A program made the position numbers and the translations under genes. From Acidobacteriaceae bacterium (lineage in GTDB: Bacteria; Acidobacteriota; Terriglobia; Terriglobales; Acidobacteriaceae), in contig JABFXN010000134.1 in assembly GCA_013361705.1 (NCBI GenBank), forward strand, positions 1-60,862: a stretch of DNA of 60,862 bases. Reading direction: 5' to 3'. Each line of letters starts with the position of its first letter. The first letter of the stretch is position 1. The notes under the pieces are model-generated. The model was not told the DNA's origin. It made no database searches and was given only the letters and a program-made list of their open reading frames with translations. Below, in pieces: positions 47,070 through 56,755 of this stretch.

Positions 47070-47081
47070 GAGCCACGCATT

Positions 47082-47270
47082 GGGTGCCCCATGTCCCTCG
47101 GGGACATAGGCATCGCGCTACGCGCGACCTGTCTTTCCGACAGAGTCACCTTGAATTTGTCCGCTCCTGTGGGTCGATCCACCCCAATCCGGTCGCGACC
47201 GAAATAACAAACAAAAAAACGGTTCGCGCGTAGCGCAATGCCCAGGTCCCTTTAGGGACCCGGGGCACCC
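47082..47270. repeat. Family B element (189 bp) with GGGTGCCCC ends
   Basis: GGGTGCCCC (47082-47090) and GGGGCACCC (47262-47270) are inverted ends of a 189-bp element. Inside are ATGTCCC-TC-GGGGACAT-like and GGTCCCTTTAGGGACC (47245-47260) hairpins. The copy at 60603-60795 has the same ends and almost the same length (193 bp). It occupies most of the 309-bp space between the methyltransferase and blaI-like genes. Confidence 0.55.
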
Positions 47271-47323
47271 GATGCATCGCTCCGGCATAGCCTCGCACTT
47301 GCACCATTTCTTGTGCTGGAATG

Positions 47324-47369
47324 TTCGTACGAAGTTTTTCGTTGACACATACGAACGAGTTCGTATAAC
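47324..47369 (+). promoter_or_regulatory. Promoter and double operator of the blaI-like gene
   Basis: TTGACA (47342-47347) and TATAAC (47364-47369) are 16 bp apart. The spacer is almost filled by the inverted repeat TACGAAC-GA-GTTCGTA (47350-47365). A second perfect palindrome, TTCGTACGAA (47324-47333), lies just upstream. Both contain the half-site TTCGTA. Placement inside the promoter is exactly what is expected of a BlaI-type operator. Transcription should start within a few bases of the ATG. Confidence 0.75.
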
Positions 47370-47378
47370 GTTCCTCCC

Positions 47379-47762
47379 ATGATGAAGAACAGGGAGACAC
47401 CCAAACCGACCGAAGGCGAGCTTGAATTGCTGACGATTCTCTGGAATCGTGGTCAGGCCACAGTTCGCGAGATCTTCGAGGACGTGAATGCGCAGCGTCC
47501 TGTGGTCTACACTGGCGTGCTGAAGCTGATGCAGATCATGACCGAGAAGGGTCTGGTCACGCGCGACGAGAGCGAGCGTGCTCACGTCTACCGCGCAGCG
47601 ATCAAGCGTGAGGATGCGCAGCGCCGTTTTATGCGGGAGCTGAGCCAGCGCTTCTTCGCCGGAAGCGCGGCACAGCTCGCACTGCACGCACTGGAGATGG
47701 AACAGGCCAGTGAAGAAGAGCTCGACGAAATTCGCAAACTTCTAAAGCGCCGTAAGAAATAG
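47379..47762 (+). CDS. BlaI/MecI/CopY-family transcriptional repressor
   Basis: This 127-residue protein is a winged-helix repressor with the BlaI pattern: EGELELLTILWNRGQATVREIFEDV, TGVLKLMQIMTEKGLVTRDE and a Lys/Arg-rich end. BlaI proteins dimerise on short palindromes and are cleaved after signalling by an M56 partner. It is followed 28 nt later by that partner gene. Two palindromes lie in its promoter. ATG codons at 47379 and 47382 both fit. There is no ribosome-binding site because the mRNA is probably leaderless. Confidence 0.9.
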   Translation: MMKNRETPKPTEGELELLTILWNRGQATVREIFEDVNAQRPVVYTGVLKLMQIMTEKGLVTRDESERAHVYRAAIKREDAQRRFMRELSQRFFAGSAAQLALHALEMEQASEEELDEIRKLLKRRKK

Positions 47763-47790
47763 CACAGAGCAACGGCGAAAGGGGCGACCG

Positions 47791-50043
47791 ATGAGATTTT
47801 TCGACAACGGAACCATGGTGGCGCTGGGCTGGACCCTGCTGCACTTCTGCTGGCAGGGAACGGCGATTGCGATGTTTTACAGCATTGCCGACCGCCTGAC
47901 GCATAAGGCCGGAGCAAACACGCGTTATCTGATTGCACTTGTTGCTACGCTGCTGATGCCGCTGGCCGCCATCGCAACCTATGTCGACCAGTCAAGGCTG
48001 GTGGTCCACATCTCGCACGACGGGCAGACCGTGGCCGCATCGCAGCTTGGAGCGTTTCACGAAGCAATTGTGAAGGAGATTCCAGTTGCTGCGCCGGTCG
48101 TCCAGGAGAGCGAGCTATGGATCGCCTGGAACGCCGACCGCATTCTGCCGTGGATCGACGGTATCTGGATCGGCGGTGTACTGTTGCTCGCCCTGCGCGC
48201 CGCCGGTGGATGGTGGCAGTTGGAGCTGGTGCGGCGGCGTGCCACCGGGCTGGTTCCGGCTGAACTACAGCGTACCTTCCAGCGCATCAACCGGCAGCTT
48301 CGCACAGGCCGGAACGTCGCCCTGCGCTTCTCCGATGAGGTGCTGTCTCCGCTGGCAATGGGAGTGTGGCGTACCGCTGTGATTCTGCCGGCAAGCATTT
48401 TGACTCAGCTTGAGCCGGAGGAGCTTGAGTCGGTGCTGGCGCATGAGTTGGCCCACATCCGCCGGTGGGACTACGCTGCAAACCTGCTGCAGACTGCCAT
48501 TGAGAGCCTCCTCTTCTTCCATCCGGCGGTGTGGTGGATCAGCCGCCGCGCGCGTGATCTGCGCGAGGTGTGCTGCGACGCCGTAGCGGCGCAGACCTGT
48601 GCGGATCCGGTGGTCTATGCCCAGGCACTGCTGCGCCTGGAAGAACAACGTACCGAGCGGTTGCGGCTTGCCGTAGCGCTCAACAACGGACACACGCCGC
48701 TACTCGGCAGGGTGAAACAGATTTTGGGAGAGGGTCGACAGATGGAGTCAGGAATGAAGAGTGGAGTACAGGCCGCAGTGGCTGGAGCCGTGGTGGTGGG
48801 ACTGATGTTGGCTCCTAAGATGGCGCAGGGACTGAAGCAACAGGCGAAGATCGTGCCGATTCCGGCGCCTCTGATGGCTGAGAATATCGCCGCGCCGCAG
48901 GCGCAGCCTGCGCCAGCTCTGGCCCCCGCCGCTGCTGAACAACAGCGTCCAGCACCGCTTGCCCAGCCGAATTCTGATTCGGTCGCGTCACCGATGGCAA
49001 ATCCGGAACCCGAGCCGTTGGCAAACGTTACCCCGGAAGTTAACCCTTCGATTCAGGTTGCAGTGGCTCCGGCCGTCAATGTCGTGGTTGCCGCGAATGT
49101 CGCTCCGGTCATCTCTGCGTCTCGTAGAGCCATGTACCAGGACGCCGCTAAGGGCGGTGCCGCCTATCTGCAGCAGATGAAGGACGCGGGCTATCCGCTG
49201 GACCTGGATAAGGACCTCGACCAGATCATCTCGATGCGTTCGGTCGGCGTGACGCCGGAATACGCCAAGAAGATGGCGGAAGCCGGCTACGGCACTCCTT
49301 CACTGCATGATCTGGTAAGCCTGAAGTCGGTTGGCGTTACGCCGGAGTATGCCAAGCTAGTCGCGGAGTCGGGTTACGGCAAGCCAACGCTGCACGATCT
49401 GGTCGGCATGAAGTCTGTGGGTGTGACACCGGAGTATGCAAAGTCCATCTCGCAACTTGGAATCGGCACCCCGAACCTGCATGATCTCGTGGCGCTGAAG
49501 TCGATGGGGGTTTCACCGGAGTATGTCGCCGAGCTGAAGAACTCCGGCATCGCACCTGCTTCGCTGCACGACGTCATCTCAGAGAAGAGTCTCGGCATCA
49601 CCGGCGACTATGCCAAGCAGATTGCTGGTATGGGCTATGGTTCGCCCACCGTGCATGATCTGGTTGCATTGAAGTCCATGGGTATTACGCCGGAGTACGC
49701 CGCAGGATTGAAGAGCTCGGGGATCCCGGTTCAGAACCTGCATGATCTGGTTTCCATCAAGTCCGTTGGCGTGACTCCGGAGTACGCCAAGAGCATGGCG
49801 GCGGCCGGCTTCACCGACTTGGATGCCCACCAACTGGTCTCACTCAAGGCTCAGGGTGTGACGCCGGAGTACACGCGCTGGGTGAAGCAGACCTTCCCCA
49901 ATGCGGATATGAAGACGATCCGGGAGGCTGCCAACTTCCATATCGATGAGGCCTTTATCGCCAAGGCCAAGTCGCACGGCTTCAACAACACCTCGCTGGA
50001 CAAGCTGGTGAAGCTGAAGATCAGCGGTCTGCTCGAAGACTAA
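47791..50043 (+). CDS. M56 (BlaR1-like) zinc protease with periplasmic repeat array
   Basis: This 750-residue protein has an N-terminal four-helix membrane part with the zinc motif HELAH at residues 218-222 (HELAHIRRWDY), as in BlaR1/MecR1, then a Pro/Ala-rich linker (about residues 355-440). Instead of a penicillin-binding sensor domain, it has eight tandem 29-residue repeats from about residue 479, of the form L-V-x-x-K-S-x-G-(V/I)-T-P-E-Y, and a C-terminal cap (FHIDEAFIAKAKSHGF). The repeats are on the periplasmic side if topology follows BlaR1. It is paired with the upstream BlaI-type repressor. The ligand sensed is unknown. Confidence 0.85.
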   Translation: MRFFDNGTMVALGWTLLHFCWQGTAIAMFYSIADRLTHKAGANTRYLIALVATLLMPLAAIATYVDQSRLVVHISHDGQTVAASQLGAFHEAIVKEIPVAAPVVQESELWIAWNADRILPWIDGIWIGGVLLLALRAAGGWWQLELVRRRATGLVPAELQRTFQRINRQLRTGRNVALRFSDEVLSPLAMGVWRTAVILPASILTQLEPEELESVLAHELAHIRRWDYAANLLQTAIESLLFFHPAVWWISRRARDLREVCCDAVAAQTCADPVVYAQALLRLEEQRTERLRLAVALNNGHTPLLGRVKQILGEGRQMESGMKSGVQAAVAGAVVVGLMLAPKMAQGLKQQAKIVPIPAPLMAENIAAPQAQPAPALAPAAAEQQRPAPLAQPNSDSVASPMANPEPEPLANVTPEVNPSIQVAVAPAVNVVVAANVAPVISASRRAMYQDAAKGGAAYLQQMKDAGYPLDLDKDLDQIISMRSVGVTPEYAKKMAEAGYGTPSLHDLVSLKSVGVTPEYAKLVAESGYGKPTLHDLVGMKSVGVTPEYAKSISQLGIGTPNLHDLVALKSMGVSPEYVAELKNSGIAPASLHDVISEKSLGITGDYAKQIAGMGYGSPTVHDLVALKSMGITPEYAAGLKSSGIPVQNLHDLVSIKSVGVTPEYAKSMAAAGFTDLDAHQLVSLKAQGVTPEYTRWVKQTFPNADMKTIREAANFHIDEAFIAKAKSHGFNNTSLDKLVKLKISGLLED
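49210..49905 (+). repeat. 87-bp tandem repeats coding the sensor array
   Basis: Eight in-frame 87-bp units encode the 29-residue repeats of the M56 protein. The phase is exact: the GGC of the repeated GV(T)PEY unit falls at 49246 and then 49333. Units are diverged at the DNA level, so the array is old rather than freshly expanded. Confidence 0.75.
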
Positions 50044-50044
50044 A

Positions 50045-50155
50045 GGAGATTTTCCTTGAGGGCGTAGTCAAGAGCTTCCATATCTATGGACGTTTTCCTC
50101 AATGAAAACGCCGCAGCACGCCCTTTCTGGGATGCCCAGTAACAGGGAAAACTCT
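50045..50155. repeat. Family D element (about 110 bp), copy 2
   Basis: The ends GGAGATTTTCC (50045-50055) and CAGGGAAAACTCT (50143-50155) and the internal hairpin CGTTTTC (50091-50097)/GAAAACG (50104-50110) match copy 1 at 35895-36005 in reverse orientation, with moderate divergence. It lies between the M56 gene and the secreted repeat protein, starting 2 bases after the stop codon. Confidence 0.65.
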
Positions 50156-50166
50156 AAGGAGACAAC

Positions 50167-50934
50167 ATGAAGACGCTTACACTCACGCTCCTCATCCTGG
50201 GGCTGGCGGCGGCGCACGCCCAAACACGGACCGGTGTGTGCATGCTTTCAGCTTCGGAGAAGCATCCTGAACAGGTCTCGCTTTTGATCAACCGAACAGA
50301 CTGTGAGGGCGACGGCAGTTGCGGCACCTCGAACTCCAGCATGGGCTGGGAGCGCTGGGGCATCACACGTGATCTCCTGACCCAGGAAGGCACACAGGTA
50401 GATGCTCGTCTGCATGCAGATGCAGGAGAGATGCGGTGCAATGGTGTCGTGCATGACGGCATGCTCGCGGGCCGCTATACGTTTACCCCTAACGTGGACT
50501 ACGCGCGTCAGGTGCGTTCCCTTGGTCTGGAGGGAGAGATTCCCGACAAGCGCCTGGAAGGTTTTGCGATGCTGGACGTTTCCATAGCGTGGATTAAACA
50601 GATACAGGCCACCGGCGTCACCAACCTTACTGCGAACCACCTGATGGGGCTGCGGGCTCTGCACGTCGACCCTGAGTACATTCGTGCCATCGCCGCTGAA
50701 GGCTATCCGGAGTTACGCGCGAACAAGTTGACGGAGATGAAGGCCGTCGGCGTCACGCCGGAGCGCATTCGCGAGATCAAATCGATGGGGCTTAATCCCA
50801 ACGACAGGGAGTTGATTGAGATGTGTGTCTTCCATATCGATAAGCCGTTCATCGAGAAGATGAAAGCAAGGGGATTGAAAGACCTTACGGTTGCCAAGCT
50901 CGTGAAGATCAAGACCTTCAAGCTGGATGAGTAA
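50167..50934 (+). CDS. Secreted protein sharing the M56 sensor repeats
   Basis: This 255-residue protein has a signal peptide (MKTLTLTLLILGLAAAHAQ) and a Cys-containing N-terminal domain (residues 20-130, unknown). Diverged repeats of the same type as in the M56 protein follow (LHVDPEYIRAIAAEGY, VGVTPERIREIKSMGL). Its end (FHIDKPFIEKMKARGLKDLTVAKLVKIK) matches the M56 protein end (FHIDEAFIAKAKSHGFNNTSLDKLVKLK). Although a family D element lies between, the spacing fits one operon. It may bind the M56 sensor or act as its antagonist or co-sensor; this is inference. Confidence 0.75.
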   Translation: MKTLTLTLLILGLAAAHAQTRTGVCMLSASEKHPEQVSLLINRTDCEGDGSCGTSNSSMGWERWGITRDLLTQEGTQVDARLHADAGEMRCNGVVHDGMLAGRYTFTPNVDYARQVRSLGLEGEIPDKRLEGFAMLDVSIAWIKQIQATGVTNLTANHLMGLRALHVDPEYIRAIAAEGYPELRANKLTEMKAVGVTPERIREIKSMGLNPNDRELIEMCVFHIDKPFIEKMKARGLKDLTVAKLVKIKTFKLDE

Positions 50935-52920: not shown

Positions 52921-53526
52921 TCAGTTCTGTTTTGTCTCCAGTTCGGCGACGCGGGCTTCGAGGGCGGCGATACGGGCTTCCAGCTCTTCCAGGCGGCTGG
53001 GTGAAGATGCTTTGACAGGAGCAGCCACTTCACTGGTCTCCGGCATCCCACACAACAGATGTGCGTACCGGGCTTCCCTGGCTCCCGGTTGGCGGGGCAG
53101 CAGGACAGCGAGAGGTGTCTCTCGTTCTACCATGCGGGTCAGCGTGCTTTGCACGGCCGCCAGATCATCGAAGGTGTACATGCGATCGGCGCGTGTACGC
53201 AGTTCTCCCGGAGTCTGGGGTCCGCGCAGCAGCAGTAGACACAAAACAGCGGTCTCGTCGCGTCGCAGGTTCAGCACTGTGCGTACGCGGTGTTCAAACT
53301 TAAGCACGCGGCTGTCGTGCACCGTGGAGGTGTAACCGATGTCTTCCAGATGGCGAAGTGAGGAACGCACCTCTTCTTCACTGAGCTCCATGACCGGTTC
53401 GCGCGACGACTTCTGGTTACACGCGGCGATCAATGCATTCAGAGACAGGGGATAGTACTCCGGGGTGTTGATCTCTTTCTCGATCAACGCACCGAGCACG
53501 CGCGCTTCCATGGCAGAGAGTTCCAT
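52921..53526 (-). CDS. yceH: YceH-family (DUF480) protein
   Basis: This 201-residue protein has the YceH pattern: MELSAMEARVLGALIEKEINTPEYYPLSLNALIAACNQKSSREPVM, two winged-helix domains, and a coiled-coil end (LEELEARIAALEARVAELE). Its function is unsettled. The start at 53526 is chosen because the family begins there; in-frame ATGs at 53532 and further upstream are possible. The divergent cyclase gene starts only about 80 bp away. Confidence 0.85.
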   Translation of the reverse strand: MELSAMEARVLGALIEKEINTPEYYPLSLNALIAACNQKSSREPVMELSEEEVRSSLRHLEDIGYTSTVHDSRVLKFEHRVRTVLNLRRDETAVLCLLLLRGPQTPGELRTRADRMYTFDDLAAVQSTLTRMVERETPLAVLLPRQPGAREARYAHLLCGMPETSEVAAPVKASSPSRLEELEARIAALEARVAELETKQN

Positions 53527-53608
53527 ATGCATCAGCATAGTCCGCCGTGACAAAAAGCCTGGGGCAGATACCTCGGGGCATGATATTTTTCCCTTTGGAC
53601 GAGGAGTC

Positions 53609-56600
53609 GTGACGCGGCGGTCGTTAGTGAAAGCGGAGTGGTGGGTTCTCCGTCCGGCGCTATGGTTTCTTGCGCTGGCCGGGATTTTTTATTGTGGAGC
53701 GAGAGCCGACGCACAGACTGGTCCGGCTGCCGGATTGGATGGGGATAAGCTTCAGGCTATCTCCGAGATGAACTTTAATGTGATGACCATGAAGCAGGGT
53801 CTGCCTCATGACTCTGTCTATGGCTTCGCGCAGGACACCACGGGCTATGTCTGGATCGCCAGCTTTGGCGGGCTCTCCCGGTTCGACGGTTATCAGATCT
53901 ATAACTACACGCACGACGCCCATGATCCGGGATCTCTGCCGGATAACAATGTGCGGGTGCTGCTGCCGCGGCCTGATGGCGGCCTGTACGTCGGTACGGG
54001 AAGCGCGGGTCTAAGCATCTATCAGCCGGCGACGGATAGCTTTGTCATTCCGGCGAAGACCCCTTCCGTGCTGCGGAAGGCGCGTGTCTTCTGTATGGCT
54101 GATGATGGAGAGGGCGGCGTCTGGATTGGTACACAGAACGGATTCGCCCATTATCACGACAATACGGGCCAATTCGATCTCTACGGTGGACTTACGGGCA
54201 AGCCAGTCACCGGGAGAATGCCATCCGGCGGTATCTTCGCGCTGCTGCAGGATAAGGATCGCAATCTCTGGGTGGGGTCCGGTACCGGACTCTACATGCT
54301 GGGGAAAGGGGTTGGGGAATTTCAGTTCTTCGCCGGCGACGACAAGCTGGGACAGAGGCCCTCTGTCTGGTCAATCTTCCAGGACCATGTCGGCGGAATC
54401 TGGGTAGGAACAGACACCACGGGGATCGGGACGGTCGATCGAAAATCAGGGACGCTGCATGGATATCCCGGGCTTGCCGGAGAGGGATCGTCGGTCGGTC
54501 CTCACACGGTGCGTGCCTTTCTGGAGATGCAGCCAGGCCTGTTGTGGTTTGCGACCTATGGTGGCGGTCTGTTCTCGCTTGATACAGCCACAGGGCAAAC
54601 GTTGCATTGGGCTAAGGACCCGACCGCATCGGCGCCTCTGAGCAATGACTTCATTCGCGGCATGATTCGTGACCGCTCCGGGGTGGTGTGGCTGGGGACC
54701 GACAGCGGTCTATCTTCCATCACCGTGAATGGGCGAGGTATCTTCAACATCCGCAGCTCGCCGTTGAGGCCGGACCGTCTGTTTGGTTCGGAGGTGCGCA
54801 GTGTCGGCGCCGGGTATGGACGTGTTTGGGTTGGCTTCGACCAGGGCGGATTTGCAGAGATTGACCGGGATGGAAGCATCCATCGTATTCAGCCTGCGCC
54901 GGGAGTGAGCGGGGACCAGATCTCTCACCGCGAGGTGCTGGCGATCAAGGCAGTGGATGAGAAGACAGTAGTCGCCGGAGGCATTGGCCTGTACCTGATC
55001 GATGTGGCGACGCGGACCTATCGTCCCGTCGACGATGTCTTCCTTCGCAAGCAGATCGTGAATGCGTTGCTGGTCGATGGCGATGACGTGTGGGCGGGAA
55101 GCTATAACGGTCTGGCGCGCTACAACCGCCGGACCAGACAACTGAAGGTCTTCGCCCACGATCAGAGCAATGCCGCCAGCATCTCGGACGATTATGTCCG
55201 CGATATGTTGAAGGACTCTCATGGGCGGTTGTGGGTGACAACCCGGCTGGGCCTGGATCTCTTCGATCCCGCGACCGAGAGCTTTCGTCATGTACGTCAT
55301 GACAAAAACGATCCGGCTTCGATCGCGACCGATAATATCCAGCCGATTGCGGAAGACCCTCAGGGCCGTCTCTGGATCGGTTCCATCGGCGCCGGCGTTC
55401 AGGTGATGGATGAGTTCAAACCAGATGGGAAGGCGCGCTTCCGCGCCATCGACCACGACCACAGCAACCTGCCGGACGACATCATCCTCGTCATCCGGCG
55501 CGGTCTCGATGGAACGATGTGGATCAATACGCCGCGTGGGCTTGCCGCCGTGGATCCAAAGAGCTTTGCCGTACGGCGGTACGGGACGCCGGATGGCTTG
55601 CAGGCGACGGCGCAGAACCTGTTCAGCTCCGCCATGCTGGATGATGGAACCATTCTCTTTCCGGGGAACTCCTCGGTGGTCATCGTCCGGCCGCAGAAGC
55701 TCCACCCGTGGACCTTTGCGGCACCGCTGGTAGCAACCGAGGTGACGGTGCAGGGGGTGGCGCAGTCGCCGGTGCTACTGGCACGCCAGGCAAGTGCAGG
55801 GCAGCTGAGCTTTCCGTCCCATCGCGGTTTTGAGGTGAACTTTGCCCTGCTGGATTACACCTCCCCCGACGACACGCTTTACTCTTATCAACTGGAAGGC
55901 TTCGACGATAGCTGGAGCGTGCCAAGCATCAGCCGCCGTTCCGCCACGTACACTAACCTCCCAGGCGGCCAGTATGTCTTCCACATCCGTGCCGTCAGCC
56001 GCAATGGCGCGGGGCCCTCGCAGGAGATCAGCTTTCCCATTCACATCCGCAATGGTGTGACAGAGACGCTGTGGTTCCAGATCCTGCTGATCCTGCTGAC
56101 GATTGGTGTCGTGTTGTTGCTGGTCCGCATCCGGCTTGCTTATATGGCTCGCCGCCAGCGGGAATTGGAGGCCGTGATCGCGACGCGAACCAGTGAGCTG
56201 GAGTCGAGCCGCCAGGAACTGATCCGCGTCAATGAGCGACTGGCGCGGATTGCACTACATGATGAGCTGACCGGAACACTGAACCGCCGCGGCTTCTTTG
56301 AGCGTGCTTCTTTGGAGGTTTCGCGTTCCCACCGGTCGGGCCGCGGCTACAGTCTGCTGTTGGCCGATCTTGATAATTTCAAGCAGACCAACGACACCAT
56401 GGGTCACAGCGCCGGCGATGCTACATTGCGAGCCATCGCCACCATGTTTGCGTCTTCCATTCGCACCTCGGATATCCTCAGCCGTTACGGGGGAGAGGAG
56501 TTCATTCTCCTGCTGCCGGAGACCGAGGAAAGCCAGGCGCTCCAAATGGCAGAGCGGCTTCGCCAGATGGTAGAGGCGGCCCCGATCGAATACGCTGGGA

Positions 56601-56755
56601 TCGTCTTTCACACGACGACCAGCATCGGCCTGGCGACCTCCACGGGAGAAGATGAGTCGCTGGAGGCTCTTATCTCACGCGCGGATCAGGGGCTTTACCG
56701 GGCTAAGCGCTCTGGAAAAAACTGTGTCCAGACCGCCTCCGGACTGACGGCGTAG
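53609..56755 (+). CDS. Diguanylate cyclase with periplasmic propeller sensor
   Basis: This 1048-residue protein has a signal segment (residues 15-33) and about fourteen propeller blades with the Reg_prop pattern (GYVWIASFGGLSRFDGY, GGVWIGTQNGFAHY). A Y_Y_Y-type domain (YSYQLEGFDDSW), a membrane helix near residues 830-850 and a coiled coil follow. The GGDEF domain has an intact active site GGEEF (961-965) and an I-site RTSD five residues before it, so it should make c-di-GMP and be product-inhibited. The GTG start at 53609 has GAGGAG only 2 nt upstream; a later GTG (53627) is possible. Confidence 0.9.
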   Translation: MTRRSLVKAEWWVLRPALWFLALAGIFYCGARADAQTGPAAGLDGDKLQAISEMNFNVMTMKQGLPHDSVYGFAQDTTGYVWIASFGGLSRFDGYQIYNYTHDAHDPGSLPDNNVRVLLPRPDGGLYVGTGSAGLSIYQPATDSFVIPAKTPSVLRKARVFCMADDGEGGVWIGTQNGFAHYHDNTGQFDLYGGLTGKPVTGRMPSGGIFALLQDKDRNLWVGSGTGLYMLGKGVGEFQFFAGDDKLGQRPSVWSIFQDHVGGIWVGTDTTGIGTVDRKSGTLHGYPGLAGEGSSVGPHTVRAFLEMQPGLLWFATYGGGLFSLDTATGQTLHWAKDPTASAPLSNDFIRGMIRDRSGVVWLGTDSGLSSITVNGRGIFNIRSSPLRPDRLFGSEVRSVGAGYGRVWVGFDQGGFAEIDRDGSIHRIQPAPGVSGDQISHREVLAIKAVDEKTVVAGGIGLYLIDVATRTYRPVDDVFLRKQIVNALLVDGDDVWAGSYNGLARYNRRTRQLKVFAHDQSNAASISDDYVRDMLKDSHGRLWVTTRLGLDLFDPATESFRHVRHDKNDPASIATDNIQPIAEDPQGRLWIGSIGAGVQVMDEFKPDGKARFRAIDHDHSNLPDDIILVIRRGLDGTMWINTPRGLAAVDPKSFAVRRYGTPDGLQATAQNLFSSAMLDDGTILFPGNSSVVIVRPQKLHPWTFAAPLVATEVTVQGVAQSPVLLARQASAGQLSFPSHRGFEVNFALLDYTSPDDTLYSYQLEGFDDSWSVPSISRRSATYTNLPGGQYVFHIRAVSRNGAGPSQEISFPIHIRNGVTETLWFQILLILLTIGVVLLLVRIRLAYMARRQRELEAVIATRTSELESSRQELIRVNERLARIALHDELTGTLNRRGFFERASLEVSRSHRSGRGYSLLLADLDNFKQTNDTMGHSAGDATLRAIATMFASSIRTSDILSRYGGEEFILLLPETEESQALQMAERLRQMVEAAPIEYAGIVFHTTTSIGLATSTGEDESLEALISRADQGLYRAKRSGKNCVQTASGLTA

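Follow-up and report, generated by a model that had tools for sequence, protein, structure and literature searches.

The window analysed here, a stretch of 60,862 nucleotides (nt) from contig JABFXN010000134.1 of an Acidobacteriaceae bacterium (assembly GCA_013361705.1), carries an operon for a BlaI/MecI-type repressor, an M56 membrane metalloprotease whose sensor is an array of 29-residue repeats, and a secreted protein built from related repeats. The operon region studied spans 47379-50934, all coordinates being window positions (Table 1). To our knowledge, repressor cleavage by M56 proteases is understood mainly from beta-lactam sensing. The trio of BlaI repressor, repeat-bearing M56 protease, and secreted repeat protein is widespread, occurring in many bacteria and in soil bacteria above all.

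Table 1. Features of the operon region in the window.
Feature	Position	Strand	Basis
Candidate repressor promoter, TTGACA (47342-47347), 16-nt spacer, TATAAC (47364-47369)	47342..47369	+	by eye
Second copy of the palindrome, one mismatch (TACGAAGTTTTTCGTT), just upstream	47328..47343	.	
Palindrome TACGAA-CGAG-TTCGTA (TACGAACGAGTTCGTA), predicted BlaI operator, inside the promoter	47350..47365	.	motif search
BlaI/MecI-type repressor, 127 aa	47379..47762	+	Pfam Penicillinase_R 3.9e-27
M56 (BlaR1-type) membrane metalloprotease with repeat-array sensor, 750 aa	47791..50043	+	Pfam Peptidase_M56 1.2e-31
Sensor array, 29-residue two-helix units, residues 457-735	49159..49995	+	unit hidden Markov model, AlphaFold2 model
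Secreted partner, 255 aa	50167..50934	+	signal-peptide-like start, beta domain, repeat units

Genes and domains of the operon

The repressor belongs to the Penicillinase_R winged-helix family, and its gene lies directly 5' of the M56 gene; repressor, protease, and secreted genes share one direction. A sequence-only reading of this DNA had described a BlaR1-like protease with a repeat-array sensor and, in the next gene, a secreted protein with related units. Both open reading frames (ORFs) were recovered where it had placed them, and the protease fits its description, with a clear M56 match, eight motifs 29 residues apart, and the array at the position of the penicillin-binding domain. That reading also invoked a repressor without placing it; a BlaI-type gene is indeed present, and the palindrome in its promoter is new to the present analysis. 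The zinc-site motifs of the protease are HExxH at residue 218 and ExxCD at residue 259.

The sensor array contains eight G(V/I)(T/S)(P/G)(E/D)Y motifs spaced exactly 29 residues apart, from G486 to G689. A hidden Markov model of the unit finds 10 units in the protease (residues 457-735) and five in the secreted protein (residues 111-241). The repeats of the two proteins align with a BLASTP E of 3e-22 in a single pairwise comparison, which bears out the claim of related units, and a two-unit DNA pattern has four matches in the window against a mean of 0.00 over 100 shuffles. The secreted protein consists of a six-strand beta domain (residues ~21-108), the five or so units, and further units at the C-terminus. 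The C-terminal "cap" of the two proteins had been called near-identical, which overstates a likeness of 15 identical residues in 35; we read it as further degenerate units and not as a separate cap.

Pfam gives no penicillin-binding domain in the window M56 protein up to E 1 and no match to DUF3738, and the NCBIfam model blaR1_generic covers residues 122-314 only, at 94.1 bits against a cut-off of 400. A beta-lactam sensor concealed in the repeats was ruled out because neither Pfam nor NCBIfam gives a penicillin-binding match. The Pfam family HHH_5 (PF14520) reaches 26.4 bits in the protease, slightly under its 27-bit cut-off. For the secreted protein, Pfam, run on the secreted homologues as well, gives no beta-lactamase or penicillin-binding protein (PBP) family, and Pfam, NCBIfam, and homologue scans give no convincing enzyme family. 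Of the 41 homologues of the secreted protein, 10 match LytB, the best at E 3.7e-6; in three checked members the match falls slightly below the cut-off and the region matched is one or two repeat units. LytB was taken as a chance match, though the best member may pass the cut-off. NCBIfam searches of eight secreted members returned scattered matches only, far below the cut-off where one is given, and the secreted family has no consistent match to any Pfam or NCBIfam model.

AlphaFold2 single-chain models, built from alignments of 34 (sensor) and 41 (secreted) natural sequences, predict a two-helix solenoid for sensor residues 441-750, with a mean predicted local distance difference test score (pLDDT) of 89.6, and for the secreted protein a six-strand domain ahead of a solenoid of this kind (mean pLDDT 90.0). 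A sequence search of solved structures with the repeats found no convincing relative. The only solved relative that Foldseek found for either model at E<=0.001 was a designed protein matching the array (8.6e-5). VIA-align ranks TAL-effector solenoids highest for the sensor array, at Z ~8-9 and a root-mean-square deviation of 15-20 A, a score that repeats reach easily; mTERF proteins rank lower (Z ~4-6), and the secreted protein has no Z above 4.1. The array resembles TAL-effector and mTERF solenoids in stacking two-helix repeats of ~30 residues into a superhelix. It differs from them in identity (~10%), in its predicted periplasmic location, and, for TAL effectors, in the deviation over the array, and such a Z may mean a common arrangement only. 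The failed fold search is a sign of neither a new fold nor a missing relative.

Pairing, fusion, and distribution of the repeat genes

Since the repeats served to gather the loci compared here, the rates apply to repeat-bearing systems and not to all M56 genes. Merging identical M56 C-termini left 107 M56 proteins, 100 of them with at least two units. All 100 keep HExxH, 82 are followed directly downstream by a secreted-type gene on the same strand, and 92 are preceded by a BlaI gene (86 under a stricter overlap filter, which dropped some BlaI genes, that of L293 among them). In the 74 pairs whose ORFs are complete and in which a beta domain was detected, the gap between the protease and secreted genes has a median of 36.5 nt and is zero or less in 12. 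The full HExxH...ExxCD pattern is present in 71 of the 74 paired proteases, and a crude hydropathy rule finds an N-terminal hydrophobic core in 73 of the 74 paired secreted proteins.

Nine of the 100 repeat-bearing M56 proteins (L110, L178, L186, L217, L225, L254, L265, L312, and L325) carry the beta domain of the secreted protein fused between the M56 domain and the repeats. A separate downstream secreted gene accompanies one of these nine (L325) versus 81 of the 91 unfused proteins; the Fisher p of 1.9e-6 is indicative only, the loci being phylogenetically non-independent and shared ancestry uncorrected. Because the beta domain is found fused into M56 proteins, eight of nine without a separate gene, a joint function of the sensor and the secreted protein is supported. 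The fused proteins, the short distance between the two genes, and the rarity of a separate gene beside a fused form likewise support reading the secreted protein as a partner of the sensor.

Sampling at increasing taxonomic distance places the system well beyond the window's own lineage. In the family sample, a relative of the secreted protein is present in six of 60 genomes and adjoins a repeat-bearing M56 gene in five of the six. The order sample has some match in 49 of 298 genomes: 41 hold an adjacent pair, three a repeat M56 gene with no secreted gene found nearby, one (L131) a secreted gene behind a DUF3738-type M56 gene, and four proteins of the secreted type only. The sequence-only reading had staked itself on the repeats recurring in neighbouring genes of other genomes, as they do in these 41 genomes and beside the 82 M56 proteins. 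Its proposal, that the two proteins would bind each other outside the membrane and that the secreted one would pass an envelope signal through the protease to the repressor, is supported in part. A broader profile matches 66 of 396 genomes in the phylum sample.

Beyond the phylum, a pattern scan in which each species was represented by one genome found units well outside Acidobacteriota, with at least 77 loci having a unit, beta domain, M56 gene, or BlaI gene; among the 80 loci listed, 77 have one of these and L275, L298, and L305 have none. Titles among the pattern-scan matches listed include Acidobacteria, Myxococcus, Phenylobacterium, Mucilaginibacter, Gemmatimonadetes, Caldilineaceae, and Eremiobacterota. 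Complete trios were found in Myxococcus eversor (L228), Myxococcus dinghuensis (L306), and Corallococcus sicarius (L293), the last two of which likewise belong to Myxococcota, and in Aquisalinus (L238) and two metagenome-assembled genomes (MAGs), one of Rhodothermia (L242) and one of Eremiobacterota (L255). NCBI taxonomy assigns the other hosts to Myxococcota, Pseudomonadota (Alphaproteobacteria), Rhodothermota, and Vulcanimicrobiota, so that complete trios span five phyla including Acidobacteriota. A Lewinella MAG (L254) has BlaI with a fused M56 protein. A plasmid search with one consensus-like secreted protein as query gave no match.

The repeats might instead be a generic periplasmic module that sits in two neighbouring genes by chance, with no special relation between their products. 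Secreted-type proteins that stand alone, with no M56 gene in the stretch examined, would fit such a module, but adjacency in 82 of 100 cases, occurrence in five phyla, and the fused forms all speak against it and leave it highly improbable.

The lone secreted-type proteins (L177, L181, L184, L188, and others) belong mostly to Acidobacteriota family f23. Their genes share a conserved neighbourhood (16 loci) that includes a gene resembling, by eye, one for phosphoserine aminotransferase, and they possibly represent a second use of the module. Tandem secreted-type repeat proteins occur in Mucilaginibacter (L239) and a Bacteroidetes MAG (L257), where the 8 kb examined showed no M56 gene, and two secreted-type genes stand behind one repeat M56 gene in L208 (G539) and L212 (G563). 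Seven M56 proteins were first classed as repeat-less, and two of them (L131 and L320) have a downstream secreted-type gene. L320 was dropped as a sensor swap because its C-terminal sensor holds diverged units, and L131 is the sole true sensor swap among the loci examined. At L131:3660-5495 (G152), an M56 protein with a DUF3738 sensor (Pfam 2.2e-48) and no repeats is followed by the secreted repeat protein.

No conserved fourth operon gene appears among the 25 largest neighbour clusters. These are MacB/FtsX permeases (20 loci) and otherwise mostly lineage-specific neighbours. In the window, 3' of the region studied, a 1096-aa ORF at 53465-56755 encodes a protein that by eye resembles a periplasmic beta-propeller sensor with a GGDEF-type C-terminus.

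A conserved palindrome ahead of the repressor gene

The palindrome TACGAA-N4-TTCGTA recurs ahead of repressor genes of the repeat-bearing systems. The search covered 85 loci in which a BlaI gene was called and the upstream DNA was long enough, with letter-shuffled regions as the control. An exact copy lies near the BlaI start in 49 of the 85 loci and a copy with at most one mismatch in 66; the shuffled regions gave zero and one, respectively. None of five BlaI genes beside repeat-less M56 proteins has the palindrome nearby, and the BlaI gene of L131 is preceded by TACTACATATGTAGTA, which looks classical. The palindrome differs from the BlaI/MecI operator, which an excerpt of PMC7253601 gives as TACA-NN-TGTA for the classical BlaI family. 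The repressor is predicted to bind TACGAA-N4-TTCGTA. An exact palindrome between the protease and secreted genes was found in none of the 74 pairs.

The automatic promoter scan did not list the window's TTGACA-16-TATAAC promoter, since its rule requires a T at the end of the second hexamer, and its one match in the blaI region is no more than shuffles give. GC-rich inverted repeats with a REP-type look (e.g. GGTCCCTTTAGGGACC) lie ahead of the operon at 47080-47290, and similar ones occur 5' of blaI in the close relatives L093 and L094.

In several genomes the copy near the repressor start is the only exact one. Among 19 genomes of the genus sample, seven hold 16 exact sites and 12 hold none, and a reversed control pattern has no match. 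Six of the eight genomes of named loci have exactly one site each, including all three Myxococcota; those of L242 and L238 have no exact site, and one of the eight has two control matches. A further 19 genomes hold 31 exact sites versus three for the control, and they were picked for an exact site at the trio, so site presence there is no rate. Twelve of their sites lie away from blaI, 10 of them 12-219 nt before a gene start and two chance-like. The extra palindrome of L395 adjoins a doubtful short ORF and that of L397 falls within a gene; both were treated as chance.

Several of the extra sites precede genes for envelope or export proteins. The genome of the window has a second exact palindrome (G000:C161:7696, seen at L355 and L398) ~50 nt before an outer-membrane barrel gene, whose product has a CarboxypepD_reg domain as judged from its orthologue L346 (OMP_b-brl_4 4.5e-23); this gene adjoins one that by eye resembles an M2-type peptidase gene. 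In all, extra sites precede outer-membrane barrel proteins, that of the window genome among them, secreted FmdA-type proteins in three genomes, MacB/FtsX permeases in five cases (two checked with Pfam, three judged from sequence), a secreted protein of ~310 aa in two (one checked, with no Pfam match), a tetratricopeptide repeat (TPR) protein, and one beta-lactamase-fold hydrolase, that of G112, which is preceded by a double palindrome.

Such sites would suit an off-switch resembling RseB. In unstressed cells the sensor array would be capped by the secreted protein, and under stress misfolded or damaged material in the envelope would titrate this cap away and so release the protease. The closeness of the two genes and the fused domains fit this arrangement, as do the extra palindromes before genes for barrels, MacB/FtsX permeases, FmdA-type proteins, and the beta-lactamase-fold hydrolase in some genomes. 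However, MacB/FtsX permeases lie near 20 loci in any case, and their adjacency to the sites may be the base rate. Docking is common to the off-switch and to the partner reading, and only the off-switch fixes the sign of the signal; it is unlikely.

Readings of the secreted protein

The operon is built on the known BlaI-M56 chassis. Like BlaR1 and MecR1, its protease is an M56 gluzincin with HExxH and a downstream ExxxD motif (HEXXH and EXXXD form the BlaR1 signature according to an excerpt of PMC9834060), and it bears a C-terminal sensor behind the last predicted membrane helix. As in the bla and mec operons of staphylococci, a BlaI-type repressor gene is adjacent and its promoter holds a palindrome; as in bla operons, the secreted product is related to the sensor. 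Unlike BlaR1 and MecR1, the sensor is a helical repeat solenoid in place of a penicillin-binding domain, which in BlaR1 resembles class D beta-lactamases (excerpts of PMC7593790 and PMC9834060), and unlike in bla and mec operons the third gene encodes neither a beta-lactamase nor a PBP. The M56-DUF3738 system of L131 is similar in joining BlaI to an M56 protein with a non-penicillin-binding sensor ahead of a secreted repeat protein, and it differs in its sensor domain and its palindrome. The sequence-only reading knew of no described example, and none was found: in full-text searches of the open-access literature, subscription journals and preprints excluded, no listed title or abstract opening describes repeat-array M56 proteins of this type, their secreted partners, or the palindrome. 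In PMC12578637, where both terms occur, M56 is part of a reagent number and the BlaI match seen lies in the references. The chassis is a known one; as far as found, its sensor class, secreted partner, and palindrome have no description.

An account of the operon can draw on observed gene content and order, the repeat architecture, the conserved zinc motif and palindrome, and the finding that a fused and a separate beta domain seldom occur together. The trio could well be a BlaI-BlaR1 type of regulated-proteolysis switch, complete in itself, with the soluble protein as a dedicated sensor partner. In such a switch, the repressor would shut its own operon through TACGAA-N4-TTCGTA inside the promoter, and the M56 protease would sit in the membrane with its zinc site in the cytoplasm and its solenoid of 29-residue two-helix units in the periplasm. 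The soluble protein would dock on the sensor solenoid and present or withhold its beta domain, and gain or loss of an extracytoplasmic ligand would change the state of the sensor. The protease would then cleave the repressor and turn on the operon and, in some genomes, a few envelope genes too. Repressor cleavage upon a change in the sensor is described for BlaR1 (excerpts of PMC7593790 and PMC9834060) and is presumed by homology for the repeat-bearing proteases; the docking and the nature and sign of the signal are what we infer. A plausible but tentative form of this account is a split periplasmic receptor, present in five phyla, in which the M56 protease reads a soluble co-receptor by solenoid contact and a ligand-binding beta domain would have shifted between the two chains in evolution.

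The periplasmic placement of the array was judged from crude hydropathy alone, which flags helices in the window protease at residues ~47-65 and 324-342 and weaker candidates at ~9-31 and 117-139. An Ala/Pro/Val-rich linker separates the presumed fourth membrane helix (~324-342) from the repeats. The fourth helix is flagged in 83 of the 91 unfused relatives, and a hydrophobic linker stretch is present in 10 and absent from 81. Because 81 of 91 lack it, the Ala/Val-rich stretch of the window protein at ~423-441 (window 49057-49113) is read as linker, and the periplasmic reading is kept because such a stretch is found in only 10 of 91 and the partner looks secreted. On this tentative reading the sensor array would be periplasmic and the zinc site of the protease cytoplasmic.

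Several observations weigh against the partner reading. The window stretch at 423-441 has a hydropathy of 2.04 versus 1.71 for the fourth membrane helix and, if membrane-spanning, would turn the array towards the cytoplasm. No separate secreted gene was found for 10 of the 91 unfused proteins, of which L180 runs off its contig and several others have long inserts of another kind. All six site-bearing genomes of named loci, and 10 of the 19 further genomes, have no second exact palindrome, which leaves the output of a co-receptor unclear. In array comparisons over the 74 pairs, only five sensor arrays match their cognate secreted array best, partner repeat numbers are uncorrelated (Spearman 0.10, p 0.38, 78 pairs), and the net charges of the two arrays correlate positively (Spearman 0.66). 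These results disfavour simple register pairing and overall charge complementarity. Register pairing by equal repeat number, concerted evolution of both arrays within one genome, and overall charge complementarity are unsupported. That the sensor and secreted arrays are two old, distinct families counts in favour of the partner reading.

A residue code between the arrays holds only partly. In pooled units (404 sensor, 239 secreted), position 3 is preferentially Asp or Glu in sensors and Lys in secreted proteins, and position 10 preferentially Gln in sensors and His in secreted proteins. Among the 69 pairs suited to position statistics, the contrast at position 3 holds in 32 of 38, seven of nine, and 15 of 22 pairs in the three sampling groups. 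It is equal or reversed in L238, L255, L291, and L306, among others, and the Gln-His contrast at position 10 breaks down in the phylum sample, whose sensors mostly have His as well; both results tell against the partner reading.

L131, which keeps the secreted protein despite its repeat-less DUF3738 sensor, likewise counts against a dedicated co-receptor and suits an output role. The secreted protein would then be the product of a homeostatic system like that of bla, sharing the external ligand of the sensor and sequestering or neutralising it, with no need for contact between the two. The combination of repressor, protease, and secreted relative of the sensor recalls the bla operons in excerpts of PMC7593790 and PMC9834060. 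In all three Myxococcota genomes the sole exact palindrome stands before the operon, so that the operon's own products would be the main predicted output, and secreted-type genes often stand alone, the stretch examined around them having no M56 gene. However, fused M56 proteins that carry the beta domain, mostly with no separate gene, would be odd for a diffusible effector, and the secreted gene has neither an exact palindrome of its own in any complete pair nor a convincing enzyme family. This output role is a serious possibility and accounts for the findings nearly as well as the partner reading does.

The trio shows the known BlaI-M56 chassis with a different sensor class and a secreted protein related to that sensor; it also has naturally fused versions and a candidate operator that can be read from the sequence. 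How a solenoid outside the membrane could drive a zinc site inside it is open to study, and culturable hosts such as Myxococcus offer a route to what else M56 proteases sense. The conserved palindrome provides a handle for finding the genes under each switch. If the split receptor is true, it would represent a whole class of BlaI-M56 switches for signals other than beta-lactams, with an operator code of its own, in culturable Myxococcus.

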